DNA from: an uncultured Ruminococcus sp.
GTDB lineage: Bacteria; Bacillota; Clostridia; Oscillospirales; Acutalibacteraceae
Assembly (NCBI GenBank): GCA_902763365.1
Contig: CACWRT010000027.1
Coordinates: forward strand, 1 to 44,961
Direction: 5' to 3'
DNA length: 44,961 nt
The position numbers and the translations under genes are program-made. Each line of letters opens with the position of its first letter. Positions within the stretch are counted from its first letter, which is position 1. Under the pieces are notes generated by a model. It was given only the letters and a program-made list of their open reading frames with translations. It ran no database searches and was not told where the DNA came from. Positions 206-43,610 of this stretch are shown one piece after another.

Positions 206-240
206 AATTCCTAATTCCTAACTCCTCACTCCTAATTCAT
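206..240. repeat. Heptanucleotide array, family A (AATTCCT), 5 units
   Basis: Five consecutive 7-mers in perfect phase: AATTCCT, AATTCCT, AACTCCT, CACTCCT, AATTCAT. The 1-205 stretch before it is AT-rich, with no convincing gene; it also holds a short TTTTTGA-type run with the same period near 178-195. The same family recurs at 9773-9800 and 20286-20313. Confidence 0.85.
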
Positions 241-242
241 AA

Positions 243-279
243 CAAAAAAATTCCCTCGCAGCATTTCTGCCATGAGGGA
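243..279 (-). terminator. Rho-independent terminator of the XRE regulator gene
   Basis: Read on the minus strand, an interrupted stem (CCCTC...GAGGG with an inner GCAG/CTGC pairing) is followed by a run of Ts. It lies just after the stop codon of the regulator at 282, the expected place for its transcript end. Confidence 0.75.
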
Positions 280-281
280 GA

Positions 282-977
282 TCAGACAAGTTTTTTGATC
301 TTATCTTCAGTTTTTTGAATAAGGTTGTAAAGAGAGGGAGCAAGTTCGGGATATTGTTTAGAAATAATATCGGGAGAAAGAACAGGAGCAGAAAGAACGT
401 CAACGCCCTGAAAACCGTCAGAGCTTTTACCGGAAGCAAGCTGTTTTGCATTAGCTTCTATTATACTTTGGAGAGCGTCAGATAGTCCTGCGTACATCTC
501 GGGTATAACGGAGAACATTGCCTGAGGGTTTTTAATGTTAGCCGCATAAACAGTACGTATCATTTTGTATACAGACACCATCATATATGATGAGATCTCG
601 GTAGTAAGACCTTTGTTGTTGAGCTGAGCAAGTATCTCATACATAATGCTGACAGAATTCTGTATAAGCTTCTTGTTGAGCGTGATAAGAGTATTAGTCT
701 TGTTATCCTCGGCAGGAACTGATTCTCTGCTGTCGGGAAGATCCTCAAGCTTCAGAGTAGCACCCGTCCTGTCGGGTGTTCTGCCTAAGAGATAGTCACA
801 TGAAACATTGTAATAATCGGCGATGTGTATCACGAAATCAAGACCACATTCTCTTATGCCCTTTTCATAGTGTGACAAAAGTGCCTGAGATACACCCAGT
901 TCCATGGCAGCCTGTTTCTGGCTTAGTCCCTTTTCTTTACGCAGAAGGGTTATTATCCTTGGAAAATCGTTATTCAT
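282..977 (-). CDS. XRE-family helix-turn-helix transcriptional regulator
   Basis: 231 residues. An N-terminal HTH_3/XRE DNA-binding domain covers about residues 8-66: the scaffolding helix, then QKQAAMELGVSQALLSHYEK as the helix-turn-helix and recognition helix, then the DYLLGRT motif that closes many Firmicute XRE domains. Residues about 75-231 are a helical region I do not recognise, probably for dimerisation or ligand sensing. The ATG is preceded by AGAGGTG at good spacing, and a terminator follows the stop. The gene diverges from the histidine phosphatase gene at 1341, so it may regulate itself or that neighbour, but this is only inferred from position. Target and ligand are unknown. Confidence 0.85.
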   Translation of the reverse strand: MNNDFPRIITLLRKEKGLSQKQAAMELGVSQALLSHYEKGIRECGLDFVIHIADYYNVSCDYLLGRTPDRTGATLKLEDLPDSRESVPAEDNKTNTLITLNKKLIQNSVSIMYEILAQLNNKGLTTEISSYMMVSVYKMIRTVYAANIKNPQAMFSVIPEMYAGLSDALQSIIEANAKQLASGKSSDGFQGVDVLSAPVLSPDIISKQYPELAPSLYNLIQKTEDKIKKLV

Positions 978-1009
978 GTTTCACCTCTTGACATCAGGAA
1001 GATAAAATA

Positions 1010-1038
1010 TTAATATAGAGTGTGTAGTCTTCTTTCAA
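1010..1038 (-). promoter_or_regulatory. Candidate sigma-A promoter of the XRE regulator
   Basis: On the minus strand: TTGAAA, 17-bp spacer, TATTAA. The start codon lies about 33 bp beyond the -10. The -10 matches only 4 of 6 consensus bases, so this is moderate evidence. Confidence 0.35.
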
Positions 1039-1284
1039 AAAAATTTCTCAGAAACGGATCAGTTCTATAGTCACAGCCCGGAATCACATCTTAGAGTAAG
1101 CATCATAAACAAAGCTCCCCGTTCCGACAACACAACAGCGAAGAATCCTTTTCAAAGATCATTCGCTTACTAACAGGAATAAAAAACAGGGCAGCATCCT
1201 TTGCCGTTTACCATAAACTATAAACCGGACTATACCCCACTCTACATATAAACAGTAAGTAAATTATATAACAATTAAAACATT

Positions 1285-1313
1285 TTGTAAAGTTTTTTGC
1301 GAAAGAAAATAAT
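1285..1313 (+). promoter_or_regulatory. Candidate sigma-A promoter of the histidine phosphatase gene
   Basis: TTGTAA, 17-bp spacer, AATAAT, followed by a short leader and an AAGGAG ribosome-binding site at 1325-1330. The surroundings are very AT-rich, so chance matches are likely. Confidence 0.35.
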
Positions 1314-1340
1314 TACAATTTTTTAAGGAGTTTACAAAAA

Positions 1341-1967
1341 ATGCAATCTTATGTAATAAATCTGATACGTCACGGAGCGGTTGATGAAACACTGAAAGGA
1401 AAGTACATCGGAACTACAGATGTTAGCCTTTCAAAAAAAGGAAGAGAGGATCTTGTACTTATCAAAGAAACTATAGGATATCCGAAACCTCAGAAGCTTT
1501 ATTCAAGTCCGCTGTTAAGATGTACACAAAGCTGTGAGATACTTTTTCCCGAAATGGATATTAATATGATCAGCAATTTCAGCGAATGTGATTTCGGCGA
1601 ATGGGAAGGCAAGTCCGCAGCCGAGCTGGCATCCGACCCTCGGTTCGGTCAGTGGCTGCAAAATTCGGACCAGACTCCTCCGCCCGGCGGAGAAAGCGGA
1701 AAAACCTTTGCATCCCGTATCGGAAGAGGCTTTGAGCACCTTGTGGAAACCATGTCCGCAGAGGGAACTACCCATGCCGCTGTTGTAACTCACGGCGGAG
1801 TTATCATGACGATACTGGCTATGTACGGGCTGCCTCAGGCCCCCAGTTATCAGTGGAGAATGGATAACGGTTACGGCTTCTCTGTTCGTGTGAACCCCTT
1901 TTTATGGATGAGAGAACGTGTTGTCGAAGTTTTCGACACCTGCCCGCCTGCGCCGGTTCATAGCTGA
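1341..1967 (+). CDS. Histidine phosphatase superfamily protein (CobC/GpmB-like)
   Basis: 208 residues. The catalytic LIRHG motif is at residues 8-12, with His11 as the predicted phospho-acceptor. FSECDFGEWEGKSAAEL follows in mid-protein, typical of the cobalamin phosphatase CobC branch, and the second catalytic histidine lies in VVTHGG near residue 150. The family removes phosphate from small metabolites such as alpha-ribazole phosphate or sugar phosphates. No cobalamin genes are nearby, so the substrate is open. AAGGAG precedes the ATG. The last serine codon and the stop overlap the first unit of a heptanucleotide array (1962-2010), so the C-terminus ends in repeat DNA. Confidence 0.85.
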   Translation: MQSYVINLIRHGAVDETLKGKYIGTTDVSLSKKGREDLVLIKETIGYPKPQKLYSSPLLRCTQSCEILFPEMDINMISNFSECDFGEWEGKSAAELASDPRFGQWLQNSDQTPPPGGESGKTFASRIGRGFEHLVETMSAEGTTHAAVVTHGGVIMTILAMYGLPQAPSYQWRMDNGYGFSVRVNPFLWMRERVVEVFDTCPPAPVHS

Positions 1968-2010
1968 AAGCTATAAGCTTAAAGCTTATAGTTCAAAGTT
2001 CAAAGCTGCG
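1962..2010. repeat. Heptanucleotide array, family C, 7 units in phase
   Basis: Units: AGCTGAA, AGCTATA, AGCTTAA, AGCTTAT, AGTTCAA, AGTTCAA, AGCTGCG. The array begins inside the last codons of the phosphatase gene and ends at the cysteine codon that starts the mature part of a lipoprotein remnant. It therefore bridges two coding sequences and takes the place of the expected signal peptide. Confidence 0.85.
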
Positions 2011-2456: not shown

Positions 2457-2462
2457 ATTATC

Positions 2463-2497
2463 AAGGGCAGTCCGCAAAACAGCAGACTGCCCTTTTT
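2463..2497 (+). terminator. Rho-independent terminator after the lipoprotein remnant
   Basis: AAGGGCAGTC pairs perfectly with GACTGCCCTT across a 12-nt loop, followed by a short T run. It lies six bases after the TAA of the remnant, which supports a formerly functional gene there. Confidence 0.8.
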
Positions 2498-2574
2498 ACT
2501 TGCAATAATGATGATGTAAAAAATTTGTCAATAAACCGGCATCAACCGAAGAAGGTCTCAACTGCCGCGCTTTG

Positions 2575-9636: not shown

Positions 9637-9645
9637 ATTATAGCA
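9637..9645 (-). promoter_or_regulatory. Candidate extended -10 upstream of spoIVB
   Basis: TGCTATAAT on the minus strand, directly beside the family B array. No good -35 is seen, because the -35 position falls inside the array. The GC-rich element would then be in the leader. Confidence 0.3.
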
Positions 9646-9646
9646 T

Positions 9647-9688
9647 TATTCACTATTCATTATTCACTATTCATTATTCATTTATTCC
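9647..9688. repeat. Heptanucleotide array, family B, 6 units
   Basis: TATTCAC, TATTCAT, TATTCAC, TATTCAT, TATTCAT, TTATTCC in perfect phase. Confidence 0.9.
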
Positions 9689-9772
9689 GGGTACGCTTCA
9701 ACATAACTGCGAACAAAAAGCAGAAACGGCGAAAGAAGCGGAATACAGCGGAAGAAATGGTCAGCCGATAAT

Positions 9773-9800
9773 AATTCCTAATTCCTGATTCCTAATTAAA
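9773..9800. repeat. Heptanucleotide array, family A, 4 units
   Basis: AATTCCT, AATTCCT, GATTCCT, AATTAAA in phase. The last unit merges with the A-run of the neighbouring terminator. Confidence 0.8.
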
Positions 9801-17915: not shown

Positions 17916-18495
17916 ATTAACTCTCCTTTCCATCCTGCCCCTGTTATACATTTGCCCGACTGCCCTGACTCTTCCCCTACACGTTCCCCCCTTCTCTACT
18001 TGTACACCAAAATTCCATTTTTTGAACTCGAAAAGTTGAAGTGTACCCTATATTTTGGACAACTTTGAAAAATAGAGTATGCTAACATTGGCTTCCCTTT
18101 GTTGGCAGTACTGTCAATCTAAGAATTTGTGGAGGCTTGTTTCGCTGCTAACGCAGCGACCAAAGGCTCAGCTTCGTTTCACTACGCATAACTTCCGCCA
18201 GCCAATCGCCCTACGGGCTCTTGGGGCGTCACTTCTTTGAAAAGGCCCCTGCGAAACTTTATCAATTATGTAATATCCTTAAATTGACCTTATTACCCTT
18301 GAAGGGAAGCTGATGATGATTTGCATATTCGTCAAAGTCATCCTTAAACATGAAGTAAAGGAACATTTCATAAAAATATATGTTCAATAAATTAACGGTA
18401 GAACAAGATAGTATGATAGTTAGCTGCTCTGAGCCCACTAAACCGGCATAGTATACAAAATATAATACCGTCAATAGATATTTTTTGATAGTTCC

Positions 18496-20058: not shown

Positions 20059-20285
20059 TATTGCTGCATTTTCTCATGATGTCAGGCTATTCAAATCACG
20101 TTAACGAATAATATCTTTGCTCACCTCGTCAAAACACTACACATTTTTCATTACAGGCAAGACGGCGCCTCTTTCAACGGCATCCGGCGAAGCCGCTTAT
20201 TTTGTGGTAAAGATCCCCGCTTACTCTTGGAATGACACGAGAGATACTCGGGATGACACCCCCAACCCCAAATTCCAAAATTCCC

Positions 20286-20313
20286 AACTCCTACCTCCTA
20301 ATTCCTAATTCAA
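20286..20313. repeat. Heptanucleotide array, family A, 4 units
   Basis: AACTCCT, ACCTCCT, AATTCCT, AATTCAA in phase, with further imperfect AATTCC units just before it. Confidence 0.8.
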
Positions 20314-23944: not shown

Positions 23945-23979
23945 TATTCATTATTCATTATTCACTATTCATTATCTGT
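23945..23979. repeat. Heptanucleotide array, family B, 5 units
   Basis: TATTCAT, TATTCAT, TATTCAC, TATTCAT, TATCTGT, ending seven bases before the exonuclease stop codon. Confidence 0.85.
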
Positions 23980-24826: not shown

Positions 24827-26646
24827 CAACCGCCTTTGCTCTGCGCCTTCATTCTCTGTTCCTTGTTAAGTATAGTTTTTCTCATGCGTACCGACTTTGG
24901 AGTTACCTCCACAAGCTCATCGTCAGCTATGAATTCAAGTGACTGCTCAAGACTGAGAACGGTAGGCGGTGTAAGCTTCAGGGCTTCATCAGAGCCTGAT
25001 GCACGGGTATTGGTGATATGCTTCTTCTTACATACATTGACAGTCATATCCTCATTCTTGGGGTTTGAACCGACTATCATGCCTTCATATACTTCAACAC
25101 CGGGGCCGATGAAAAGCCTTCCCCTGTCCTGTGCGGCAAACAGACCGTATCCTGTAGCTGTACCTGTTTCATGAGCAATAAGACTTCCCTGTGAACGTGT
25201 CTCAATATCGCCCTTATACGGTTCATAGCCGTCAAAGATACTGTTCATGATACCGTTGCCGTTTGTATCGGTAAGAAACTCGGGACGGTAGCCCATAAGA
25301 CCTCTTGCAGGTATGCGGAATTCGATCTGTGTAGTACCCGAATCCTTGGGTATCATATTTACAAGCTCAGCCTTACGTGAACCTAATTTTTCCATTACTG
25401 CGCCAACATAATTTTCGGGAACTTCAACTATAAGCATTTCCATCGGTTCCATCTGAACGCCGTCAATTTCCTTGAGAATGACCTTAGGACGGGATACTTG
25501 GAATTCATAGTTCTGGCGGCGCATTGTTTCGATGAGAATAGAAAGGTGAAGCTCGCCTCGTCCCGATACCTTGAAGGTATCTGCCGAATCAGTTTCCTCA
25601 ACTCTCATGGCAACGTTTGTTTCCACTTCTTTGAAAAGTCTGTCACGGATATTGCGCGAAGTAACATACTTGCCTTCCTTGCCTGCGAAGGGGCTGTTAT
25701 TGACCATAAATAGCATTGACACTGTAGGTTCGTCAATCTTGACGAAGGGCAGCGGCTCGGGGTGTTCGACATCACAGGCAGTTTCACCGATATTGAGGTC
25801 GGTTATACCCGATACTGCTACGATATCGCCGAGTTCGGCACTCTGGGCGTCTACTCTTTTAAGACCCTCGAATTGATAAAGCTTTGTTATTTTTGCATTC
25901 TTGCAGGTACCGTCATTATGGCAGAGGATAACATTCTGACCTGCTTTGCAGCTGCCTCTTTCAACACGTCCTATGCCTATACGTCCTACATAATCGTCAT
26001 AATCTATATTGGAGAAAAGAAGCTGAAGCGGTCCTTCCGTATCACCCTCGGGTGCAGGGATCTCTTCAAGTATTTTTTCAAAAAGAGGTTTCATATCTGT
26101 ACCCGGCTCATGGGGATCAAGTGTAGCATAGCCGTCACGTCCCGAAGCATATACAACGGGAAATTCAAGCTGATCGTCATCTGCGCCAAGCTCTATGAAA
26201 AGATCCAGTACTTCATCGACAACTTCCTCAGGTCTTGCGCCGGGACGGTCGATCTTATTGACAACAACAAGCGGTTTCTTTCCGAGCCCCAGCGCTTTTT
26301 TGAGTACGAATCTTGTCTGAGGCATACAGCCTTCAAATGCATCAACGAGCAGCAGAACTCCGTCTACCATCATAAGGATACGTTCAACCTCTCCGCCGAA
26401 ATCCGCATGACCGGGAGTGTCTACTATATTGATCTTTGTATCGTTGTACATTACCGCCGTGTTCTTGGAAAGGATAGTTATTCCCCTTTCCCTTTCGAGA
26501 TCGTTAGAGTCCATGACTCTCTCTGCAACCGCTTCATTCTGACGGAAAATACCGCTCTGAAGCAGCAGCTGATCTACAAGCGTTGTCTTTCCATGGTCAA
26601 CGTGCGCTATTATTGCAACATTTCTCAAATTCTCTCTTTTTCCCAT
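24826..26646 (-). CDS. typA: Ribosome-associated GTPase TypA/BipA
   Basis: 606 residues. Translation-factor GTPase motifs are complete: HVDHGKTTL (G1), RERGITI (G2), DTPGHADFGGEVERIL (G3) and NKID (G4). EF-G-like domains II, III and V follow, and then the BipA-specific C-terminal part (RIPARGLMGYRPEFLTDTNGNG). The protein acts on the 50S subunit in assembly and stress adaptation. The exonuclease gene follows in a 1-bp stop/start overlap. The promoter candidate at 26875-26903 implies a leader of about 220 nt containing a family C array and a GC-rich dispersed element, so its leader could be strongly folded. Confidence 0.97.
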   Translation of the reverse strand: MGKRENLRNVAIIAHVDHGKTTLVDQLLLQSGIFRQNEAVAERVMDSNDLERERGITILSKNTAVMYNDTKINIVDTPGHADFGGEVERILMMVDGVLLLVDAFEGCMPQTRFVLKKALGLGKKPLVVVNKIDRPGARPEEVVDEVLDLFIELGADDDQLEFPVVYASGRDGYATLDPHEPGTDMKPLFEKILEEIPAPEGDTEGPLQLLFSNIDYDDYVGRIGIGRVERGSCKAGQNVILCHNDGTCKNAKITKLYQFEGLKRVDAQSAELGDIVAVSGITDLNIGETACDVEHPEPLPFVKIDEPTVSMLFMVNNSPFAGKEGKYVTSRNIRDRLFKEVETNVAMRVEETDSADTFKVSGRGELHLSILIETMRRQNYEFQVSRPKVILKEIDGVQMEPMEMLIVEVPENYVGAVMEKLGSRKAELVNMIPKDSGTTQIEFRIPARGLMGYRPEFLTDTNGNGIMNSIFDGYEPYKGDIETRSQGSLIAHETGTATGYGLFAAQDRGRLFIGPGVEVYEGMIVGSNPKNEDMTVNVCKKKHITNTRASGSDEALKLTPPTVLSLEQSLEFIADDELVEVTPKSVRMRKTILNKEQRMKAQSKGG

Positions 26647-26779: not shown

Positions 26780-26857
26780 TCGGCGAGTAAAGTATCTTTA
26801 AGCGAAAAAAGCATGATCTGCCACAGCTCTGAGCTCTGAGCCCTTAGCTCTGAGCTT
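26780..26857. repeat. Conserved flank plus heptanucleotide array, family C
   Basis: A roughly 45-bp flank (AGTAAAGTATCTTTAAGCGA, then AAAAAGCATGATCTGCCAC) leads into AGCTCTG, AGCTCTG, AGCCCTT, AGCTCTG. The same flank precedes the array at 30878-30898, with only scattered differences. Confidence 0.8.
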
Positions 26858-27096: not shown

Positions 27097-27146
27097 GCTT
27101 TGAACTTTGAGCTATAAGCTAATTGCTGCGAAGCCGCTCTGAGCTA
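27097..27146. repeat. Heptanucleotide array, family C, 7 units, reaching the spoIVA stop
   Basis: AGCTTTG, AACTTTG, AGCTATA, AGCTAAT, TGCTGCG, AAGCCGC, TCTGAGC. The spoIVA stop codon (27144-27146) lies in the final AGCTA. Confidence 0.8.
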
Positions 27147-28622
27147 TAAAATAATACAAATGAGACCGTTGCAGCCGTCGTTGATAATTCTTTCAACGGT
27201 TTCCCTGACTTTGCTGCGAGCGTCGGAGGGCATTCTGTACAGTTTATTGTGAAGACCCTCATTTACAAGCTCATGGAGAGATTTGCCGAAAATATTTGAC
27301 TCCCAGATTTTTGCAGGGTCTTCCTCAAATTCTTTCATCAGATATGCTATAAGCTCCTCAGACTGCTGTTCCGAGCCGACTATAGGTGTTATCTCTGTCT
27401 GTATGGTAGTTTTCATCATGTGAACAGACGGCGCTTTTGCTCTCAGGCGTATACCGTATCTTCCGCTTTGCTTAATGATCTCGGGCTCTTCAAGCATAAG
27501 CTCATCTATATCCGGCATTACTATGCCATAGCCTGTTTCGTCCACATCGCTGTAGGCTTCTATGACACGCTGATAATCCTTTTTCATTTCTGAAAGCTCT
27601 GTCAGTATCTCAAGCAATCCGACTTCATCCGCTATATCCATGCCTGTCTTTTCGCTGAGAACATTATAGAATAGTGACGGATCAATCTCTATCTTCATTC
27701 TTGCCCTGCCCCCGCCAAGATCAACCCCTGTCGTTTCGGCATCCAGAACAAATTCACATTCCTTTACTCTGTCGGCAATATCGGCAACCTCTTTTATTTT
27801 TTTTGCATCTTTGGCAGCTTCTTTTATACTGCCGAATACAGTACTTCTTATTCGGTGATCCCTTTCAAGAGACGATACCCACTTTGGCATATCTATACGT
27901 ATCTCTCTGACGGGAAACTCAAAAAGTATCCTTGCAAGTATTTTCTTTATCTGGGCTTCATCTATATCCATACAGCTGACGGACATTACGGGAACACCGT
28001 ATTTTTCCGACATCTGCTTTGCTGTATTCTGAGCAGATTCCGACTGTGGTTCTGCGGAATTCATAAGAACAACAAAGGGCTTGTCTATTTCTTTCAGTTC
28101 TCTTATAACACGTTCTTCCGCTTCTTCGTATTCCTCTCTCGGTATATCGCTTATTGTACCGTCTGTTGTTATTACAAGCCCTATAGTTGAATGTTCCGTT
28201 ATTACCTTCTGCGTCCCCAGTTCGGCAGCCATGTTGAATGGTATAGCTTCATCAAACCAAGGCGTTTTTACCATTCTCGGGGATTCGTCTTCTATATATC
28301 CTATAGCGCTGGGCACAATATACCCTACACAGTCTATCATCCTTACACGAAATCCCGATACACCGTCAAGGCTGACTTCTACCGCATCTTCGGGAATAAA
28401 TTTTGGTTCTGTCGTCATTATAGTCCTGCCTGCGGCTGACTGGGGAAGTTCATCTGTTGCACGGTCACGTCTTGCTTTATCCTCAATATTCGGGATAACA
28501 AGCGTATCCATGAATTTCTTTATAAATGTAGACTTTCCAGTTCTTACCGGTCCTACTATTCCAAGGTATATATCACCTCCCGTCCGTCTTGCTATATCAC
28601 TGTAAATATTCATTTTTTCCAT
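27144..28622 (-). CDS. spoIVA: Stage IV sporulation protein A (coat morphogenetic ATPase)
   Basis: 492 residues, the usual SpoIVA length. The N-terminal NIYSDIARRTGGDIYLGIVGPVRTGKST holds the Walker A motif (GPVRTGKST). MIDCVGYIVP contains the Walker B-like strand, and a TKxD-like position is replaced by VVLMNS. The C-terminus ends GLICIIL; this region binds the coat partner and the forespore membrane. SpoIVA polymerises with ATP hydrolysis on the mother-cell side of the forespore and is the base layer of the spore coat. Its partner SipL is encoded immediately upstream. GGAGAG precedes the ATG. A family C array begins at its stop codon. Confidence 0.97.
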   Translation of the reverse strand: MEKMNIYSDIARRTGGDIYLGIVGPVRTGKSTFIKKFMDTLVIPNIEDKARRDRATDELPQSAAGRTIMTTEPKFIPEDAVEVSLDGVSGFRVRMIDCVGYIVPSAIGYIEDESPRMVKTPWFDEAIPFNMAAELGTQKVITEHSTIGLVITTDGTISDIPREEYEEAEERVIRELKEIDKPFVVLMNSAEPQSESAQNTAKQMSEKYGVPVMSVSCMDIDEAQIKKILARILFEFPVREIRIDMPKWVSSLERDHRIRSTVFGSIKEAAKDAKKIKEVADIADRVKECEFVLDAETTGVDLGGGRARMKIEIDPSLFYNVLSEKTGMDIADEVGLLEILTELSEMKKDYQRVIEAYSDVDETGYGIVMPDIDELMLEEPEIIKQSGRYGIRLRAKAPSVHMMKTTIQTEITPIVGSEQQSEELIAYLMKEFEEDPAKIWESNIFGKSLHELVNEGLHNKLYRMPSDARSKVRETVERIINDGCNGLICIIL

Positions 28623-28685
28623 ATATCCACTCTCCGCGTAATTTAATTAATAATTATTGATCGTAAATGAACCTGATAATTTCAA

Positions 28686-28734
28686 AAGCTTCGCAGCTGA
28701 AGGCTGTTAGCTCAAAGCATGACTGCTCAAGTTT
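28686..28734. repeat. Heptanucleotide array, family C, 7 units
   Basis: AAGCTTC, GCAGCTG, AAGGCTG, TTAGCTC, AAAGCAT, GACTGCT, CAAGTTT: a degenerate array with period 7 in the sipL-spoIVA gap. Confidence 0.7.
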
Positions 28735-28852
28735 TCTCCACGTTTTCATGGTTTAGGAGCAGCATATGCTTTTTTCAATATGCTCACTTACTCTCTCATA
28801 GTGTCAGCGCCGTTAAAAACATCCCTTTAACGAAAGAAACCATGAGCCGCCA

Positions 28853-28887
28853 AGCTTTGAGCTTTGAGCTAACTGCTTACTGCCAAT
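28853..28887. repeat. Heptanucleotide array, family C, 5 units, touching the sipL stop
   Basis: AGCTTTG, AGCTTTG, AGCTAAC, TGCTTAC, TGCCAAT, preceded by CCATGAGCCGCCA like the other family C flanks. The last base is the end of the sipL coding region. Confidence 0.8.
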
Positions 28888-30527
28888 CACCCTATCATGA
28901 TCATTGTGCCGTATTCGAGGGTGTCGTCGGGGAGATCGTTTTCTTCCCGGAGACATTCAACCGATGTGCAGTATTTTCTCGCGATATCCCAAAGCTGCTC
29001 TCCGCTGTCGGCATAGTAAATAGTCATAGCCGCTGTTGTATCTCTTTCTCTGGGCTTATTTTCGTCAGCGGTTATATCGATGATACATTTGCATGAGGAT
29101 GAGGAATACACACAGGCATATAGTCTTACTTCTGCTTTTATTTCTACACTCGTATCATCGGTTATTCTGAAACTGATATTCGGTACGGTTATACTATGGT
29201 CAACATTGAACCTTTTCCGTGAAGCTCTGTCGGCAGATACTGTATCCCCGGATTCGGGAGAAAAGGTGATATCAACAGATTTTTCAGCGCAGAAGGGCTG
29301 ACCGTCCCTGTCCAGGGCAAGCATACAGCAGTTCATCTTTCCTTTGACATTCAGTCCGTCAGAAATTGAACTGAGGGAATCGCACCATATATCTATTACT
29401 TTTGATATGCCGTTATCCTGTGCGCTGATGGTACTGACAACACTGTTTGTCATGCGGAAAACATCGGAAAGATCGTAAAAGCTTTCTGCTTTGCAGACAG
29501 GCTCGATATCATAGAGAGTGGAGTAGGCGTCATCTATTACGGTAAGCTCTTTCTGTTCATATGCAAACACAGAGGCCGAAAGCCTTGCGTCAAGAGTAAC
29601 AAGCGTACTGCCCTCGTCAAATTCAGAGCGCAGAGATACTTCATAGCTCATCACATCTACCCGAACATCATTTACGGTATTTTCGTTTATTCCCTGAACA
29701 TCTATTATCTGGCTGAGGGGAACGCTGAATGTCATTGTGTCCTGACTTCCGCTTTCAATATCAGTGATATAAAGTATCTTCAGTATGACCTCGCCTTTAA
29801 GCATAAGCTTATCTTCTATCGCCCTGCAATCATCAGTCAGAACATGAAGCTCACTTCTGAGTATAGTTTCGGGAGTCCCCTTTCCGCTGCCGATATCAAG
29901 AACCTCACTAACGGAAAACTGCTGTCCTGCACAGCCTTTAAGATCACTGACCTTCTCGGTATGGAGTCTTTGCTGTATACATTCGGCTTTGCTGTTTCTC
30001 TGTGGCGATGTATTTTCGCCGCCCGAAAAAGGATCCGATCTGCTGCCCTGCCACTGATGTCTGCTGTCCGGACTGTCACCGCTTCCGATGGATGTAACAT
30101 ATGATGTGGGCGAGCTTTTGTAAACTGCCGCTATGACCGAAAATGCTCCGTGTATATCAAGCTTTCTCGGACTTACAGCGCGGCATTTCAGGTACTCGCT
30201 TCTGAGCTTTATACTGCAGACACAATCATCATCTGCGTTTTTGACATTGAATGTACAAGAAAACGGAACTCCGTGTTCACAATACCGCACTGCCTTCTTT
30301 TTACTGTCAAGGTAATATAAATGAACAGTTACCGTTCCTTCGACATCAAGACTGCCCCCTGTCAGGCTTTTTGATGTAACCGAAGGACAAATACGGCATT
30401 TCAGTATCCGCTCAACATCAGGACAGTAATCCGGCAGACACATTTCAAGGTCTACAGGCTGTTCACTTGCGCCCTCAAAGATCTTTTCACGGATATTCAC
30501 GTTTGTTTTTTCAGGTATATATTCCAT
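28887..30527 (-). CDS. sipL: SipL-like spore coat protein (SPOCS domains plus LysM)
   Basis: 546 residues from the ATG at 30527, chosen because GGGGGA precedes it and MEYIPEKTNVNIREKIFEGAS is the normal start of the family. At least two DUF3794/SPOCS domains are visible (about 1-150, with LPDYCPDVERILKCR, and about 195-420). The C-terminus (about 500-546, IYYADSGEQLWDIARKY to TMIMIG) is a LysM domain. In Clostridioides difficile, SipL binds SpoIVA through this LysM domain and is needed for coat attachment. Here the genes are neighbours, sipL first. A sigma-E-like promoter candidate lies upstream. The stretch at about 155-195 is low in conservation and rich in Ser and Gly. Confidence 0.9.
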   Translation of the reverse strand: MEYIPEKTNVNIREKIFEGASEQPVDLEMCLPDYCPDVERILKCRICPSVTSKSLTGGSLDVEGTVTVHLYYLDSKKKAVRYCEHGVPFSCTFNVKNADDDCVCSIKLRSEYLKCRAVSPRKLDIHGAFSVIAAVYKSSPTSYVTSIGSGDSPDSRHQWQGSRSDPFSGGENTSPQRNSKAECIQQRLHTEKVSDLKGCAGQQFSVSEVLDIGSGKGTPETILRSELHVLTDDCRAIEDKLMLKGEVILKILYITDIESGSQDTMTFSVPLSQIIDVQGINENTVNDVRVDVMSYEVSLRSEFDEGSTLVTLDARLSASVFAYEQKELTVIDDAYSTLYDIEPVCKAESFYDLSDVFRMTNSVVSTISAQDNGISKVIDIWCDSLSSISDGLNVKGKMNCCMLALDRDGQPFCAEKSVDITFSPESGDTVSADRASRKRFNVDHSITVPNISFRITDDTSVEIKAEVRLYACVYSSSSCKCIIDITADENKPRERDTTAAMTIYYADSGEQLWDIARKYCTSVECLREENDLPDDTLEYGTMIMIG

Positions 30528-30626
30528 TCTCTTTCCCCCGCTCCGGACAAACATCAGACTTTGTCAATGCGTAATTATTACTGAACATAATGACATAATC
30601 ATGCCGTCTTACGATATATCAGCCTG

Positions 30627-30782: not shown

Positions 30783-30898
30783 GCTTCGAGCTTTTAGCTG
30801 CAAAGCCGATGGATAACTTTGACGAAACTTGCAGCGGCAAGTAAAATATCTTCAGCCGAAAAAAACTGAGCCGCCACAGCTCTGAGCTCTTAGCTCAG
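30783..30898. repeat. Family C arrays with conserved flank, ending in the YhgE stop codon
   Basis: A short degenerate array near 30785-30810 (GAGCTTTTAGCTGCAAAGCC) is followed by the flank AGTAAAATATCTTCAGCCGA, then CTGAGCCGCCAC. AGCTCTG, AGCTCTT and AGCTCAG follow at 30878-30898. The TGA of the YhgE gene lies in the last unit. Confidence 0.75.
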
Positions 30899-33060
30899 AC
30901 TATTATGTCACTTTGTTCAACTCTGTTGTTGAAGAAGGAAATGACTTTGATACAGGGCTTTCTCAGGATAATGCCGAGAACAAGCGCGAAGGGCACAAAC
31001 GCAAGCAGCATAAGCAGATTATAGCGGTAAGCAGCTGCATTTACTCCTGCCACAGCTTCACGGAGAAGATTTACACTGTACTTGAAGGGCAGATACGGAG
31101 CTACAGACTGGAATGGAGCGGGAAGCACTTCTATCGGGAAAGTACCGCCGGCGCCTGCTATCTGGATAACGAGAATAATAACCGCAAGAGCCTTTCCGAT
31201 AACGCTGAATGTGATAGTCAGCGAATAGATTATCAGAGTATAAACAAAGCTTGAAACCAGTGCGCCGAGTATAAACAAACCGGGGTCGTCACATTGTACC
31301 TTGAGGAAGAAGAGATCCCCCAGGGCAATTATCCATGCCTGTATCTGACCGATAAGTAAGTATATAAAATATCTTCCGAAATACTGCTGGGTATTGTTGG
31401 GATTATCAAGCTTTCTCAGCTCATGCTTGGTCATATCGGTCTTCATAACAGCTACAAGTACGATACCTCCTACCCAGAGAGCAAGAGTGGAATAGAACGG
31501 AGTCATACCCGAACCATAGTTGTCAAGCGGATATTCGTGGTGCTCCTTTATTGTAACAGGGCTTGCCACAAATTCACCGAGAGCTTCGGGGTTTTTGGTA
31601 ACAGGTTCTATTAGACTCTCAATAGAGGTGTTGTTCATGGCAAGATCAATAAGCGTTGAATAGCGTTCAAGCTTTTTCTCTGCGTTGGATATGGATTTTT
31701 TCAGAGTTTTTATCTTATCCTTTACTTTGTCAACAGATTCGTTTGCTTTATCGAAGGAGTCGTTCAGTTCGGGAACCTTTTCATTAAGATTCGTAAGCAT
31801 AACCGTAACCTTGTCAAGAGACTGATAGGAACGTGCCACAGCCTGATTTATCCTGCCCTTGATATTGGCAAAGGCTGTGCTTACAGAGGATGAATCGCCT
31901 GAAGAATTTTGTACAAGCTCGTCAAGCTTGCTTTTTACATCTTCCGAGACTTTTTCGCCCTTCTCAAGAGTATCAGCGATCCTGTTTACGTATTCTTTAA
32001 TACTGTTCTGACGTTCAACAGCCGAATTCAGCCTTCCGATAACATCCGAGCAATCTATATCAAGCGTATCCTGTATTGTGGTAAACACACTTATAATACG
32101 GTTATATACTGTTATAACCCTGTCGTTGACATTTGTAATATCTCTGAATTTAGCCGCTGCTGCCTTGCTGTCGGAACCTGCTTTATCAAAAGCCGAGTCA
32201 ACACGGGAAACTATATCGTTAGAAATGTTCTGTGCGGAAATAATTGATGTTTCTATAGAATCCGTTACCTGAAGCGCAGCACTCTGACCTGCGGCAATGG
32301 AATTTTTTGCGTTTGCTACAGAATTCTGAGTATCGGTTATTCTTTTCTGAATATCAGGGACTACCTGCTCTTTTTTCTCGTCTATGTTTTCTCCGAGAGT
32401 ATCCAGGGTCGTAACATAGGTATCAAGCCTTTTTTTAACATTTCCGAGTTCTTCTTTTGCTTTGTCAAGGCTTCCGATAAGTGTATCGGTAGCTTTATCC
32501 TTTGTCTTGTCAAGGGATTCGGTAGAAAGATTAAGTGTTGTGGCGATCATCTTTGTTATAGTGCTGACATAGGTGGAGTTGACTGTTTCTTCAATAGTCT
32601 GTATTCCCTTGTCCGTTATTTTCGGAGCAATTGCGTTTTTCTTTTCGTTTACATAGTATTGCAGCTTGGCCTGTTCAAATTTTCCTGTGGTAAGGGACAG
32701 CAGACATTCGCTGAAATCCTTTGGCACAATAACTGCTGCATAGTATGTACCGTCTTTTACGCCGTTTATTGCTTCCTTCTCGGTAACAAAGGTCCAGCCC
32801 ATTTTATCATTCTTTTTCAGATTATCAACAATCTGATCTCCTGCATTGATAGAAATGGATTTGAACTTGTAGCCTTTGTCCATAGAGCATACTGCAAAGC
32901 TCAGACCGTCCGTACTTGAATAGGGATCCCAGTTAGCCGCTATATTGAACCAGGCATAAAGCGCAGGCAATATACATATTCCTATGATCACGATAAATAC
33001 TATGAGATTCTTTGCGACGCTGCGCAGATCATTCAGAAATATTCTGAATATTTTTTTCAT
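30895..33060 (-). CDS. YhgE/Pip family membrane protein
   Basis: 721 residues. An N-terminal helix (IVFIVIIGICILPALYAWFNIAANWDPYSST) is followed by the YhgE/Pip extracytoplasmic start (LSFAVCSMDKGYKF) and a long helical, coiled-coil stalk (about 190-480). Five or so membrane helices form a C-terminal ABC-2-type bundle (about 510-700, including PFYSTLALWVGGIVLV and PIEVLPAPFQSVAPYLPFKYSVNLLREA). The family includes the phage infection protein Pip and parts of type VII-like exporters. No partner of that kind is nearby. The upstream membrane protein gene ends three bases before its ATG, so the two form an operon. Its stop codon lies in a heptamer array. Confidence 0.9.
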   Translation of the reverse strand: MKKIFRIFLNDLRSVAKNLIVFIVIIGICILPALYAWFNIAANWDPYSSTDGLSFAVCSMDKGYKFKSISINAGDQIVDNLKKNDKMGWTFVTEKEAINGVKDGTYYAAVIVPKDFSECLLSLTTGKFEQAKLQYYVNEKKNAIAPKITDKGIQTIEETVNSTYVSTITKMIATTLNLSTESLDKTKDKATDTLIGSLDKAKEELGNVKKRLDTYVTTLDTLGENIDEKKEQVVPDIQKRITDTQNSVANAKNSIAAGQSAALQVTDSIETSIISAQNISNDIVSRVDSAFDKAGSDSKAAAAKFRDITNVNDRVITVYNRIISVFTTIQDTLDIDCSDVIGRLNSAVERQNSIKEYVNRIADTLEKGEKVSEDVKSKLDELVQNSSGDSSSVSTAFANIKGRINQAVARSYQSLDKVTVMLTNLNEKVPELNDSFDKANESVDKVKDKIKTLKKSISNAEKKLERYSTLIDLAMNNTSIESLIEPVTKNPEALGEFVASPVTIKEHHEYPLDNYGSGMTPFYSTLALWVGGIVLVAVMKTDMTKHELRKLDNPNNTQQYFGRYFIYLLIGQIQAWIIALGDLFFLKVQCDDPGLFILGALVSSFVYTLIIYSLTITFSVIGKALAVIILVIQIAGAGGTFPIEVLPAPFQSVAPYLPFKYSVNLLREAVAGVNAAAYRYNLLMLLAFVPFALVLGIILRKPCIKVISFFNNRVEQSDIIV

Positions 33061-33063: not shown

Positions 33064-33828
33064 TTATTTTCCCCCTTTTCTGTAATGCTTTGGCTTGTAT
33101 CCGGAGCCTGTGCCCGGCTGTATCTTTTCGGGTGTTTTTTGTTCCGTTGTTATGCTGACATCTGTTTTTTGTACAGATGCTTTCCCCTCGGAAGAAGCCC
33201 CGGCAGTATCCTGCTGTTTCCGGGCGGGAGAAGCTTCTGCGGCAGTATCCTGCTGTTTCCGGGCGGGAGAAGCTTCTGCGGCAGCGTCCTGCTGTTTCCG
33301 GGCGGGAGAAGCTTCTGCGGCGTTCTTATTATTATCAACCGGAAGAACGACCATGACAACATCTTCCTCATTCTCATTTTCATCATCGTCTTCCTGAATT
33401 TCATAGTAATCGAATTCATCTGCTATACCGAGAAATTCCTTGAACATATGATATCTGTATTCTGCACGTATCATTACAGCTACACAGTAGAAGATAGAGG
33501 CTACCCACAATACAAGAAATTCGATCTTAGCTTCCAGACTGAAAATGAGGGTAAGAAACAGGATACCGAGTATGATAATGGTCCATGCACCGTATTTTCT
33601 GTAGCTTGTACGTTTTTGTTTGGCAGTATTATACTCATCAAGTACCCTAAGATATGTCAGATGTTCTATTTCTGATTGTGAAAGCGGAGGGATAGAAGGA
33701 TCTTTTGAGTCATATTTTTCATGAAGCTCATCCATTATCGCTTTTTCGTTTTTGGTTGAATTATCCCTGTATTTAGATATCTTATCCAGAATATAGGAAC
33801 GGTCGGAAAAATTCTTTTTACGCGGCAT
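33064..33828 (-). CDS. Membrane protein with Asp/Glu stretch and 13-residue tandem repeats
   Basis: 254 residues, not recognised as a known family. Residues 1-75 are hydrophilic and helical. Two membrane helices follow (about 77-118: AWTIIILGILFLTLIFSL and FLVLWVASIFYCVAVMI). Then comes an acidic segment (DDDENENEED) and three copies of EASPARKQQD(T/A)AA, with a basic end (KPKHYRKGGK). AAAGGAGG precedes the ATG, and a consensus promoter with a family B array in the leader lies upstream. The YhgE gene follows three bases after its stop, so the two proteins probably work together at the membrane. Confidence 0.8.
   Translation of the reverse strand: MPRKKNFSDRSYILDKISKYRDNSTKNEKAIMDELHEKYDSKDPSIPPLSQSEIEHLTYLRVLDEYNTAKQKRTSYRKYGAWTIIILGILFLTLIFSLEAKIEFLVLWVASIFYCVAVMIRAEYRYHMFKEFLGIADEFDYYEIQEDDDENENEEDVVMVVLPVDNNKNAAEASPARKQQDAAAEASPARKQQDTAAEASPARKQQDTAGASSEGKASVQKTDVSITTEQKTPEKIQPGTGSGYKPKHYRKGGK
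33201..33317 (-). repeat. 39-bp coding tandem repeat, 3 copies
   Basis: Three nearly identical 39-bp units starting CGGCAGTATCCTGCTG on the plus strand. They encode 13-residue units around EASPARKQQDTAA in the C-terminal tail of the membrane protein. The only clear difference is one base in the third copy. Confidence 0.95.
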
Positions 33829-33845
33829 ATAGACCTCCTTTATTA

Positions 33846-33880
33846 GTGAATAATGAATAGTGAATAATGAATAATAAATA
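33846..33880. repeat. Heptanucleotide array, family B (complement), 5 units
   Basis: GTGAATA, ATGAATA, GTGAATA, ATGAATA, ATAAATA in phase. It begins right after the predicted transcription start of the membrane-protein operon and so forms most of its leader. Confidence 0.9.
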
Positions 33881-33889
33881 ATATATTAT

Positions 33890-33918
33890 ATTATAAAATT
33901 ATTTGTAACAAGTGTCAA
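33890..33918 (-). promoter_or_regulatory. Consensus sigma-A promoter of the membrane protein-YhgE operon
   Basis: Minus strand: TTGACA, 17-bp spacer, TATAAT. Both hexamers are perfect and the spacing is ideal. Confidence 0.85.
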
Positions 33919-35360: not shown

Positions 35361-35423
35361 CGGCTTCGCAGCTAAAAGCTCAAAGCACTTAGTTCAAAGC
35401 TTTTCAGCTGCTGCAAAGCTTTC
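35361..35423. repeat. Heptanucleotide array, family C, 8-9 units
   Basis: CGGCTTC, GCAGCTA, AAAGCTC, AAAGCAC, TTAGTTC, AAAGCTT, TTCAGCT, GCTGCAA, AGCTTTC: the longest run of this period in the window. Confidence 0.8.
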
Positions 35424-35450: not shown

Positions 35451-35485
35451 TGCTCTGAGCTCTGAGCTCTGAGCCCTGAGCTAAT
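35451..35485. repeat. Heptanucleotide array, family C, 5 units
   Basis: TGCTCTG, AGCTCTG, AGCTCTG, AGCCCTG, AGCTAAT, preceded by GGAGCCGTCA as in other copies. Confidence 0.9.
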
Positions 35486-35909: not shown

Positions 35910-36333
35910 GATGACTATGGAATTTGACAGCAGGTCTGAAAACGAATCATTTGCCAGATCGGCGGCGGCAGCTTTTGTAATGCAGCTTGATCCGACCGTA
36001 AGCGAAATAGGAGATATCAAAACAGCTGTTTCGGAAGCCGTTACAAATTGTGTCGTGCACGCCTACAGGGGACGCAAAGGGAAAATAAGATTAAGTGTAA
36101 GGTTTACCGGAGATAATACTGTGGTAATAAAAATAACTGACAGAGGCTGCGGCATAGAGGATGTACATAAGGCAATGGAGCCGCTGTATACAACTTCCGC
36201 AGATGAAGAACGCGCCGGACTCGGATTTGCAGTAATGCAAAGCTTTTGCGATGATGTTTCCGTGCGTTCCTCCGCAGGCAAGGGCACTACCGTGACTCTT
36301 AAAAAGAAGCTCAGCCCGAGGTACGCCAGATGA
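35893..36333 (+). CDS. spoIIAB: Anti-sigma-F factor and serine kinase SpoIIAB
   Basis: 146 residues from the ATG at 35893, inside the end of spoIIAA. A longer frame from 35863 overlaps more and starts MTCWRGAEE, unlike the family. The GHKL ATPase motifs are present: N box AVSEAVTNCVVHAY, G1 DRGCGI, G2 AGLGFAVM. It binds sigma-F in the predivisional cell and phosphorylates SpoIIAA. sigF overlaps it by four bases (ATGA). Confidence 0.95.
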   Translation: MNVTNEMTMEFDSRSENESFARSAAAAFVMQLDPTVSEIGDIKTAVSEAVTNCVVHAYRGRKGKIRLSVRFTGDNTVVIKITDRGCGIEDVHKAMEPLYTTSADEERAGLGFAVMQSFCDDVSVRSSAGKGTTVTLKKKLSPRYAR

Positions 36334-36983
36334 ACGGACGGGACAAGGCAGTAAACGAAAACCTGGGACTTGTCCATGCCTGCGCAGTACGTTTCAGAGG
36401 CAAGGGCATTGAATATGACGATCTGTATCAGGCAGGATGTGTTGGGCTGATAAAAGCTGTTGACAAGTTCGATCCTGCTCTTGGATACCGTTTTTCTACT
36501 TATGCTGTTCCTGTGATAATGGGCGAAATAAAACGTATGTTCCGTGACGGCGGAAGCGTCAAGGTGTCAAGAAGCCTGAAGGAATTGTCCCTGAAAATCA
36601 ATAAAGCAGGAGATGATTTTGTCAGAGAACACGGAAGAGAACCTACAGTTTCCGAACTTGCGAAGTGTCTTGACAGCTCCGAAGAAGCTGTCACAGAAGC
36701 AATAGGCGCAGCTGCGCCGCCTCTTTCCCTTACTCTGTCGGATGATGACGGCGAGGTGCAGAGTGATATCCCGGTTCCGTCTCATGACGGTAAAATTATC
36801 GAGATAATGTCACTTCACACTGAGCTTAAAAAGCTTTCCCCGGAGGATCGCAGGCTTATTGAGCTTCGCTTTTTCAAACGTGTGACTCAGACCGCTGCCG
36901 CAAAAAAGCTGGGCATGAGCCAGGTTCAGGTATCAAGACGTGAAAAGAAAATACTCAAAAAACTGAGAGAAAAGCTTTTTTAG
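36330..36983 (+). CDS. sigF: Sporulation sigma factor sigma-F (SpoIIAC)
   Basis: 217 residues. Region 2 (about 8-78) has DDLYQAGCVGLIKAVDKFDPALGYRFSTYAVPVIMGEIKR. Region 3 follows (about 90-135), and region 4 ends with TQTAAAKKLGMSQVQVSRREKKILKKLR. It directs the first forespore-specific transcription after asymmetric division. It is the third gene of the spoIIA operon. A family B heptamer array starts at the last base of its stop codon. The gene converges on rpoD at a shared terminator. Confidence 0.96.
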   Translation: MNGRDKAVNENLGLVHACAVRFRGKGIEYDDLYQAGCVGLIKAVDKFDPALGYRFSTYAVPVIMGEIKRMFRDGGSVKVSRSLKELSLKINKAGDDFVREHGREPTVSELAKCLDSSEEAVTEAIGAAAPPLSLTLSDDDGEVQSDIPVPSHDGKIIEIMSLHTELKKLSPEDRRLIELRFFKRVTQTAAAKKLGMSQVQVSRREKKILKKLREKLF

Positions 36984-37003
36984 CGAATAATGAATAATGA
37001 ATC
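36983..37003. repeat. Heptanucleotide array, family B (complement), 3 units
   Basis: GCGAATA, ATGAATA, ATGAATC, starting on the G of the sigF TAG stop codon. Confidence 0.75.
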
Positions 37004-38161: not shown

Positions 38162-38203
38162 AATTTATTCCTCCTGAATATTCATATAACTCTGAAAAAA
38201 CAA

Positions 38204-38312
38204 GGAAACACTGAATAAAACGTTTCTCAACTTTGAAATAAACCGGCGGGCGATCCTGCGCGAAGCTTTGCGCTGCGCCACGCCGCCGATTTATGACTAA
38301 ACAGCGTTTCCC
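38204..38312. repeat. 109-bp imperfect palindrome between two sigma genes
   Basis: Outer arms GGAAACACTG and CAGCGTTTCC are near complements. Nested inside are CCGGCGGGCG with CGCCGCCG, and at the centre GCGCGAAGCTTTGCGC. The whole could fold as one long hairpin in the operon transcript. It may be a miniature mobile repeat or an RNA-processing or attenuation structure between the sigma genes. Confidence 0.7.
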
Positions 38313-38341
38313 GATCTTCAGATCATTTTATACTGCTGCGG

Positions 38342-39355: not shown

Positions 39356-39366
39356 TCATCATGCTC

Positions 39367-42255: not shown

Positions 42256-42270
42256 ATTACCCCCTTATTA

Positions 42271-43278
42271 TTATATATTCCGCATGATAAACGATTTCGG
42301 TATAAACAGTTCCTTGAATTTGTCTGTCGCATACCTGTCGGTCATACCCGCAAGGTAGTCGCATACGGCGATCTCCACACCTTCCGCCTGAACCGTATGT
42401 CTGTTTTCCACAGGCATTTCTTCGGGATGCTTTATAAAATGGCCGTACAGAAATTCCATAAACATAGGTATTTTTCTTTCCTCATGCTTTGCATATTCAT
42501 TTGAATACACAACGGCAAACATATATTTATGCAGTCTGTCAAATACGCCCTGTACATCTTCATCCATGCTGAGCTCTCCGCATTGAGAATTTTCCACCAG
42601 AGAAAGCACAAGAGTATTTATCCTCTCGGAAGTACTTCTTCCCAGCACTTCTCCCACTTCTTTCGGTAGTTCATCCTGTGACAGGACGCCTGCCCTCACG
42701 GCGTCATCTATATCATGATTGATATATGCTATTCTGTCGGCGATCCTGACTATTCTGCCTTCAATGGTATCCGCCTGTTTTCCTTTGGTATGACACACTA
42801 TACCATTCCTTGTTTCATATGTAAGATTAAGACCTCTGCCGTCCTTTTCAAGCTTATCAACGACTCTCAGACTTTGTTCATAATGTCTGAATCCTCCCGG
42901 CACAAGACAGTTCAGCGCTCTCTCTCCTGCATGACCGAAGGGTGTATGCCCCAGATCATGTCCGAGGGCTATAGCTTCGGTAAGATCTTCATTAAGTCTC
43001 AGGGCTTTTGATATAGTCCTTGCTATCTGTGATACCTCAAGCGTATGTGTAAGTCTTGTACGGTAGTGATCTCCTTCAGGTGACAAAAAGACCTGTGTCT
43101 TATGCTTTAATCTGCGGAATGATTTACAGTGTATTATCCTGTCACGGTCACGCTGGAATTCTGTCCTCACGGTACATTTTTCTTCCGGTATTCCCCTGCC
43201 CTTTGCTTCGGCAGAAAAACAGGCATATTCTGATAAAACAAGTTTTTCCAGTTTTTCGGTTTGTTCTCTGATATTCAC
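42271..43278 (-). CDS. dgt: Deoxyguanosinetriphosphate triphosphohydrolase-like HD protein
   Basis: 335 residues with a GTG start and a weak AGAGTGA site. The HD-domain ligands are in RLTHTLEVSQIARTI (His), ALGHDLGHTPFGHAGE (His-Asp) and YINHDIDDAVRAG (Asp), the arrangement of dNTP triphosphohydrolases. FRRLKHKTQVF near residue 55 is typical of the Dgt family. It removes the triphosphate from dNTPs and so can control nucleotide pools. It is the first gene of the run that continues into dnaG, a common arrangement in Clostridia. Confidence 0.93.
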   Translation of the reverse strand: MNIREQTEKLEKLVLSEYACFSAEAKGRGIPEEKCTVRTEFQRDRDRIIHCKSFRRLKHKTQVFLSPEGDHYRTRLTHTLEVSQIARTISKALRLNEDLTEAIALGHDLGHTPFGHAGERALNCLVPGGFRHYEQSLRVVDKLEKDGRGLNLTYETRNGIVCHTKGKQADTIEGRIVRIADRIAYINHDIDDAVRAGVLSQDELPKEVGEVLGRSTSERINTLVLSLVENSQCGELSMDEDVQGVFDRLHKYMFAVVYSNEYAKHEERKIPMFMEFLYGHFIKHPEEMPVENRHTVQAEGVEIAVCDYLAGMTDRYATDKFKELFIPKSFIMRNI

Positions 43279-43332
43279 TGAGCATCACTCTTTTTCTCAT
43301 ACAAGCTTTTACAGGGCGTTCACACTCTGTGT

Positions 43333-43361
43333 ATTTTACCCTTATATAATGTTATACGCAA
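43333..43361 (-). promoter_or_regulatory. Candidate promoter of the dgt-dnaG-rpoD operon
   Basis: Minus strand: TTGCGT, 17-bp spacer, TAAAAT, about 50 bp upstream of the dgt start. Confidence 0.5.
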
Positions 43362-43388
43362 AAAAATGTATAATACCTTTATTTTTTC

Positions 43389-43610
43389 CTCCGGCTCGCC
43401 GCCGGTTCCATAACGCGCCTGCTTGCCGCCGGTCCCGTAACGCGGGGATCGCTTCACTACGTTCCGCTCCGGGCACGCCACTGCTGCCTTTATTAGTCGC
43501 GGTTACTGCTATTTTCTCGGCTTATACCTTGTGATCCTCACCTATGCTTTTAAGTGATCCGGTAATAATCGGTAGATTATTCACTATTCATTATTCACTA
43601 TTCATTTATT
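43389..43610 (-). repeat. Composite dispersed element with nested duplication and family B array
   Basis: It shares its blocks with 9483-9690 (array, ACCGATTATTAC, GGTGAGGAT, GCCGAGAAAATAGC, TAACCGCGAC, GGAGCG, CCCCGCGTTA). The GC-rich end is duplicated: GCCGCCGGTTCCATAACGCG and GCCGCCGGTCCCGTAACGCG follow each other. The array at 43578-43605 is TATTCAC, TATTCAT, TATTCAC, TATTCAT. A further partial start (CAGCCGATAA, complement) lies at 43613-43645. Confidence 0.75.

Follow-up and report, generated by a model that had tools for sequence, protein, structure and literature searches.

Period-7 arrays in an uncultured Ruminococcus genome are probably the arms of small non-coding insertion elements

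Short intergenic arrays that repeat every 7 bp, here termed heptad arrays, are numerous in an uncultured Ruminococcus sp. (GenBank assembly GCA_902763365.1), and three families of them, A (AATTCCT), B (TATTCAT/TATTCAC) and C (AGCTCTG/AGCTTTG), were recognized in positions 1 to 44,961 of contig CACWRT010000027.1, the stretch of 44,961 nucleotides that is referred to below as the window. They probably form the arms of short inserted elements (about 75 to 290 bp) without coding sequence, which resemble miniature inverted-repeat transposable elements (MITEs) or REPINs (doublets of repetitive extragenic palindromic, REP, sequences). Arrays of families A, B and C share one polarity relative to neighbouring genes, inserts that carry terminal heptads are absent from relatives, the sequence on both sides of the array is conserved, and the number of units differs from copy to copy in 7-bp steps. 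The window is contig 27 of the source genome (G000; 3.31 Mb in 211 contigs), and its SpoIVA is closest, among the matches listed, to that of a rumen metagenome-assembled genome labelled Ruminococcus (83%).

The arrays of the three families were found at the window positions given in the initial annotation, which had been made from the sequence of the window alone. In 427 kb of the source genome (the window and 20 further stretches) 98 period-7 arrays were identified, compared with 2 to 16 for each of the periods 5, 6 and 8 to 11. At a score of at least 9.5 the window contains 15 arrays of period 7, while periods 4, 5, 6, 8, 9, 10, 11, 12 and 13 give 0, 2, 3, 0, 1, 1, 0, 5 and 0, respectively. 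At a score of at least 12 the 20 other stretches (382 kb) contain 58, compared with at most one for each of periods 4 to 6 and 8 to 11 and two for period 12, and first-order Markov copies of six of these stretches gave no period-7 array at that score. Three consecutive B words matched the source genome 126 times, overlaps inside one array being counted, and the reversed control had no match. Period 7 is therefore commoner than periods 6 and 8, and the 58 arrays outside the window are far from rare, these being the two points on which the initial annotation had staked its proposal. Its description of the arrays as intergenic largely holds: at a score of 10.5, 79 period-7 arrays are intergenic and 8 coding, compared with 0 and 8 for period 6, 0 and 6 for period 9, and 1 and 13 for period 12, where coding sequence was called by our own open reading frame (ORF) rule, which counted 86% of the bases as coding. 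The proposed number of at least 20 arrays in the window is reached only when weak ones are included (15 at score 9.5, 18 at 8 and 27 at 7, where period 9 gives 21 and period 12 gives 17). As described, the phase is constant within arrays, while the sequences of the units vary. The families are more than three, with AAGTGTG, CTATAAA, TTTTTGA and TGGAAAG types also present.

The arrays display a pronounced polarity. Arrays of families A, B and C were oriented by their purine-rich words (GAATA, GGAATTA, AGCTCAG and similar), which allowed 57 of the 98 to be scored, the remainder lying mostly in ORFs (13), at stretch ends (11) or in other families (17). The 5' side of the purine-rich strand is nearer to a gene edge in 50 of 56 arrays (one tie; p = 1e-9), with the 3' side directed towards a core, and the median distance to the gene edge is 15 bp on the near side and 238 bp on the other. 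This polarity is common to A (9/9), B (29/35) and C (12/13). A gene is located within 25 bp on the 5' (outer) side of 38 of the 57 arrays, 24 of these at gene 3' ends and 14 at 5' ends, and on the opposite side of only 3. In addition, a core end, TGGCGGCTCA, is found with at least 8 of 10 matches on the inner side of 19 of the 98 arrays and on the outer side of none; at 7 or more matches it occurs inside 30, outside 1 and at 7% of random places. By hand reading, the 19 arrays comprise 13 of C or C-like sequence, 4 of B and 2 of A, and thus one core end carries three families. The suggestion that the families share nothing but their period therefore does not stand, since A, B and C have in common both a polarity towards gene edges and this core end. 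Of 26 distinct regions (28 rows), 6 (8 rows) also display period 7 at the far gene edge with a score of at least 8, compared with 2% of 188 control edges, and other periods gave none. In several inserts the inner ends and heptads are inverted at the two sides, as would be expected of terminal inverted repeats, but the outer heptads often differ between the ends.

Comparison with relatives revealed sites at which the elements are missing. The hisH-hisF spacer measures 287 bp in the source genome and at most 7 bp in 29 of the 29 relatives fetched (the 30 best loci, one of them the source genome's own, of 63 genomes with a match). The insert carries heptads at both ends, is located in the last codons of hisH and contributes a new stop codon, such that HisH ends TK followed by TAG from the insert, compared with TKR followed by TGA in the closest relative. 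In that relative the end of hisH reads ..ACAAAGAGGTGA; here ..ACGAAA is followed by TAG and heptads, and AAGAGGTGACGTGTAatg comes after the insert, where the old stop sequence and the Shine-Dalgarno sequence of hisF, formerly part of the hisH end, are retained. The insert (locus L001, 13882-14184) thus cuts HisH by one residue relative to its closest relative. A stretch similar to a GC-rich dispersed repeat of the window (43377-43484, see below) was also found inside it. The hprK-murB spacer is 245 bp long with heptads at both ends, and at most 107 bp in 26 of 28 relatives (one further locus lacks hprK). Both hisH and hprK terminate in TAG in the source genome, a codon used by 0 of 29 and 0 of 28 relatives, respectively. 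A further spacer (L015) measures 366 bp compared with 19 bp in a relative and displays an array at one end only. Within the window, the sipL-spoIVA spacer measures 264 bp, while in relatives it is at most 35 bp (53 of 63), 52 to 87 bp (6) or above 100 bp (4). Two of these four, L041 (246 bp) and L028 (132 bp), hold inserts of their own with other heptads at both ends, and in L033 (157 bp) one end is marked by a degenerate array. The parts of the window insert are as follows.

28623 to 28886, minus strand: insert-bearing spacer of 264 bp between sipL (28887-30554, minus) and spoIVA (27144-28622, minus), with strong heptads at the sipL end and weak ones at the spoIVA end.
28853 to 28870, minus strand: family C array (AGCTTTG/CAAAGCT) separated by 16 bp from the stop of sipL; its inner end, TTGGCGGCTCATGG, runs from 28852 downward.
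28695 to 28718, plus strand: inverted partner read by eye, AGCTGAAGGCTGTTAGCTCAAAGC followed by the inner end ATGACTGCTCAAG; 10 of 17 positions match at period 7, and the array scan missed it.
28641 to 28660, plus strand: outer heptads TTAATTAATAATTATTGATC near the spoIVA start, with a far-edge period-7 score of 6.0, weak alone.

Wider surveys of inserts, by ortholog groups and by synteny with the relative G004, yielded few cases. Among compact ortholog groups there were six spacers of at least 110 bp, of which four display period 7 (three of these being the same sipL-spoIVA spacer) and none displays periods 5, 6 or 8 to 11. Over 17 syntenic gaps, period 7 was present in the source genome in 5 of the 9 where its gap is the longer and in 0 of the 8 others; over 20 syntenic gene pairs, arrays were present in 3 of 4 where the source genome is longer, 0 of 15 of similar length and 0 of 1 where G004 is longer. 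Such elements are also held by G004 itself (loci L233 and L239).

The genome that contains L041 provides a view of many copies. A 120-base core query returned at least 43 matches, many of them partial (40 of 114 candidates scored), and a short core-start pattern gave 27 distinct copies in 31 loci, comprising 21 of type I, 5 of type II and 1 that fits neither. Type I ends consist of an outer tip, GAAAWAG, TGAATAG units and an inner TTGTGGT. The tip is GAAAWAG in 15 of 21 copies and AAATTAG, AAAATAG, GTAAAAG or GGAATAG in the other 6, while the number of units, counted by hand with the tip included, ranges from 3 to 9, all in register. The variant TGAATGG occupies the third place from the tip in 9 of the 10 type I copies that have it near the tip, and this fixed place implies that the array is copied along with the element. 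Changes in the number of type I units seem to fall on the side facing the core. Type II ends (AATTAAT GAATACT GAAAACT TAAGACT TAAGAAT GAATAAT) keep the phase with differing words and are alike across the five copies. In the source genome three similar cores are bordered by about 2, 3 and 5 heptads, and one end type has 37 matches compared with 1 for the reversed control.

The same words extend beyond the genus. Of 300 genomes of the family, the source genome among them, 27 contain exact B words, and these represent 19 of 135 genera; the reversed control was found once in each of 4 genomes. Forty places were sampled in six genomes of five other genera, picked for many matches. A junction consisting of T, one to three bases and GG lies directly inside the last heptad at 25 of 47 inner sides and 0 of 47 outer sides, every one of the six genomes contributing at least one, and is often followed, as judged by eye, by a palindrome such as GGAAGGGCTTCGCCCTTACC. 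The junction is also one-sided in the genome of L041 (20/26 inner, 1/26 outer) and rare in the source genome (2/42) because the cores differ there. Stems were counted at 11 of 47 inner and 14 of 47 outer sides in the six genomes, and at 23 of 26 inner and 8 of 26 outer sides in the genome of L041. In the six genomes, adjacent arrays no more than 250 bp apart form 19 converging, 2 diverging and 11 tandem pairs. Compact pieces of two arms and a short core (n = 22) measure 61 to 151 bp; they were sought among converging pairs only and are thus no test of direction.

The remaining arrays of the window, together with related features, are listed below.

206 to 242, minus strand: family A array (AATTCCT/AACTCCT); on the core side, 171-194 consists of TTTTTGA heptads.
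1962 to 2005, plus strand: degenerate C-like array overlapping ORF ends.
9644 to 9687, minus strand: family B array (TATTCAC/TATTCAT), flanked by the genes for a spoIVB-like peptidase and a PASTA kinase.
9772 to 9797, minus strand: family A array, 53 bp from the kinase gene.
20258 to 20311, minus strand: family A array, degenerate.
23945 to 23975, minus strand: family B array; 11 bp separate it from the end of ORF 23987-24829.
26825 to 26856, minus strand: family C array, inner end GTGGCAGATCATG.
27098 to 27121, minus strand: family C-like array, inner end GTGGCGGATCATA.
30878 to 30896, minus strand: family C array, which overlaps ORF 30895-33060 at the ORF's 3' end; inner end GTGGCGGCTCAG.
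33844 to 33891, plus strand: family B array, located upstream of ORF 33064-33828 (minus) at 15 bp from its start.
35370 to 35386, plus strand: C-like heptads AGCTAAAAGCTCAAAGC facing the array at 35452, weak (score 7.5).
35452 to 35481, minus strand: family C array, inner end ATGACGGCTCCGG.
36985 to 37002, plus strand: family B array beginning 1 bp after the stop of ORF 36330-36983.
43578 to 43604, minus strand: family B array within dispersed repeats; parts of its flanks match at least 41 further places in the source genome (40 of 230 candidates scored).

Other repeats of the window include the GC-rich dispersed repeat at 43377-43484 (CCGGCGGCTCGCCGG, CGTTACGGGACC), which matches the genome at no fewer than 47 places (of 170 candidates, 40 were scored), another dispersed intergenic repeat at 18130-18306, with up to 7 matches per base in the sample and no period-7 array called, and 39-bp tandem repeats inside predicted ORFs (33201-33321 and 2047-2198). 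At several contig ends of the source genome (C3:52, C57:48, C122:19, C178:61, C70:59, C93:68) a core end is located no more than about 150 bp away, and repeats of this kind may break its assembly.

Read from one end, the element that we propose would have an outer tip followed by heptads, a core holding at least one palindrome and, last, inverted heptads, often of another family. It would enter short spacers or the last codons of genes; such insertion would leave the outer side of the array close to a gene and enable the array to provide a new stop codon. The elements may be mobilised in trans by a protein, with each heptad serving as one site of a protein that covers the element end in 7-bp steps, three units (21 bp) corresponding to two helical turns. 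A protein reading every 7 bp would hold the spacing while the bases drift, and slippage or unequal exchange would alter the number of units. For the number of units, slippage or unequal exchange remains a good account, as copies differ in whole 7-bp steps.

Several observations weigh against the interpretation of the arrays as element arms. Empty sites were seen at only four loci of the source genome, one of them (L015) with a one-ended array, and the window insert itself has a clear array on the sipL side and only weak heptads on the spoIVA side. Target-site duplication at hisH amounts to 0-2 nt by eye at an edge inside an A run, such that no clear duplication is visible. Long spacers are not always accompanied by arrays: two longer hprK-murB relatives (193 and 199 bp) show no heptads by eye, the 127-bp sipL-spoIVA spacer of L067 has none, and the 180-bp spacer at 38162-38341 of the window, where the ORFs of G004 overlap (-11), gives no period-7 signal. 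Clear heptads are missing at 20 of 28 far edges, and neighbouring arrays of the source genome (within 250 bp) comprise 6 converging, 1 diverging and 5 tandem pairs. Outside the genus 29 of 40 B arrays share the polarity (p = 0.006), weaker than within it; arrays in ORFs (10), at edges (3) or belonging to other families (34) had been dropped, and none was scorable from genome G067. Copies within one genome are related, so their counts are not independent events. A heptad skeleton common to 12 families, with T at 4 and purines at 2 and 7, drawn from hand-made input and equalled by the null in 3 of 200 runs, is at most a weak, suggestive hint. Finally, no autonomous partner or enzyme was found, Y1_Tnp being the only family searched and no search having been dedicated to a parent transposon. 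Y1_Tnp matches occur in 17 of 64 genomes, with two each in the source genome and G055 and none in the array-bearing G023 (90% complete), G036 (93%), G030 and G051, while G061 has seven and no B match. The six Y1 loci inspected, one from the source genome, contain no core end, and one A-rich period-7 stretch was seen in L227. Y1 presence does not follow the arrays, and the Y1 transposase of REP elements (RAYT, REP-associated tyrosine transposase) was rejected as the mover.

Replication slippage alone, in which a polymerase preferring 7-bp steps would create arrays anywhere without constraint (the proposal of Mrazek, as cited in PMC4679880 and PMC4692102), is an unlikely origin. Copies do differ by whole heptads and, in the parts of these two sources available, many bacteria are reported to over-use heptanucleotides. 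Slippage gives no polarity, no core end common to three families and no inserts missing in relatives, and it fits poorly with the same words in 19 of 135 genera and one kind of junction in the five other genera examined. As it leaves empty sites, heptads at both insert ends, polarity and conserved sequence on either side of an array unexplained, slippage is disfavoured as the source of the arrays. The initial annotation's view that one mechanism underlies A, B and C is supported by their shared polarity and core end. Equally improbable is that the arrays are sites of a regulator or partition protein, like the omega/ParB heptads of plasmid pSM19035, or serve the translational role proposed for TAACTGA repeats. 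Omega heptads are contiguous 7-bp repeats binding one dimer each, according to the accessible part of PMC9499535, and type II ends likewise keep their spacing while the bases drift. The arrays arrive with inserts and lie at gene 3' ends too (24, compared with 14 at 5' ends, of the 38 within 25 bp), and Omega_Repress (PF07764) was found in 0 of 64 genomes of the genus, where the control genomes also had no match. Slightly less probable still are RNA structures at gene ends, such as terminator or stability hairpins evolving in place, with heptads reflecting how long stems grow; the arrays are near gene ends and the 22 compact elements fold at -6.5 to -53 kcal/mol (without a shuffle control), but hisH codons are interrupted where relatives have a spacer of at most 7 bp, and the copies are dispersed with different flanks. 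That the arrays are preferred insertion targets for small elements is very improbable: cores do adjoin arrays and some regions hold several repeats, but one family in one direction would be expected on both sides, whereas the sides of inserts are inverted and frequently differ in family, and at the site most of the relatives shown lack room for an array. Elhai (2008) reportedly placed the small dispersed repeats of cyanobacteria in heptameric arrays.

Heptanucleotide arrays have long been noted in bacteria, with their cause left open in the parts of the literature available (PMC4679880; PMC4692102). Linking them to the ends of inserts, as proposed here, gives the period a physical setting, explains the position at gene edges and turns their origin into a question that can be tested, namely what binds or moves the ends. 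Genes are edited by the inserts as well, one of which replaces the last codon and stop of hisH. In the open-licence literature of PMC, no description of such elements or arrays in Firmicutes was found.

Several known systems share part of this anatomy. The omega/ParB heptads of pSM19035 are also contiguous 7-bp units, several per site, direct or inverted, but they are plasmid partition and promoter sites of one consensus (WATCACW) and are not described as element ends in the part of PMC9499535 available. MITEs are similarly small, non-coding, dispersed and intergenic with inverted ends; here small non-coding sequences are dispersed in many copies, and insertion is seen against empty sites in relatives (hisH-hisF, hprK-murB, sipL-spoIVA and L015). 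BrickBuilt of Porphyromonas gingivalis, a 23-nt minisatellite inside a MITE, likewise has a tandem repeat within the element (PMC4596501, in part). In contrast with both, the tandem repeat here is at the ends, its unit is 7 bp and its families are exchangeable; neither a clear target duplication nor a parent transposon was found, no search having been dedicated to the latter. REPINs belong to the comparison with REP sequences and RAYTs. REP palindromes moved by RAYT are short, intergenic and often in inverted pairs, as stated in the available part of PMC3733652. In the present elements the heptad arms lie outside the palindromes and Y1 transposases do not follow the arrays; palindromic cores were read by eye, and the stem count separated the two sides in the genome of L041 and not in the six other genomes. 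The closest parallel in unit length is with heptanucleotide simple sequence repeats (SSR), the short tandemly repeated repetitive sequences (STRR) of cyanobacteria and the TAACTGA repeats of Beggiatoaceae, which in the accessible text of PMC4679880 and PMC4692102 have a 7-bp unit, are mostly intergenic, comprise several heptamers per genome and are patchy across species. Over-use of heptanucleotides in many bacteria and the slippage idea were published earlier (Mrazek 2007, as cited in both), indels between two Cyanothece strains are reported to fall mostly in 7-nt steps (PMC4679880), and the repeats studied in Xanthomonas and Nostoc are described as generally not accompanying mobile elements (PMC4692102). 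The arrays described here are likewise tandem 7-bp units above chance and mostly intergenic, but they are not free-standing, to use our own wording of the STRR description: in the part of PMC4679880 available, STRR and SSR are described as arrays without element anatomy, with mobility only a possibility, while those reported here stand at the ends of inserts with empty sites. It is conceivable, if doubtful, that heptad arrays constitute a distinct type of transposable-element end, built of tandem 7-bp sites for one mobilising protein family that tolerates many words, and that the unexplained heptanucleotide arrays known from cyanobacteria, Beggiatoaceae and other groups belong to elements of this class as their arms.

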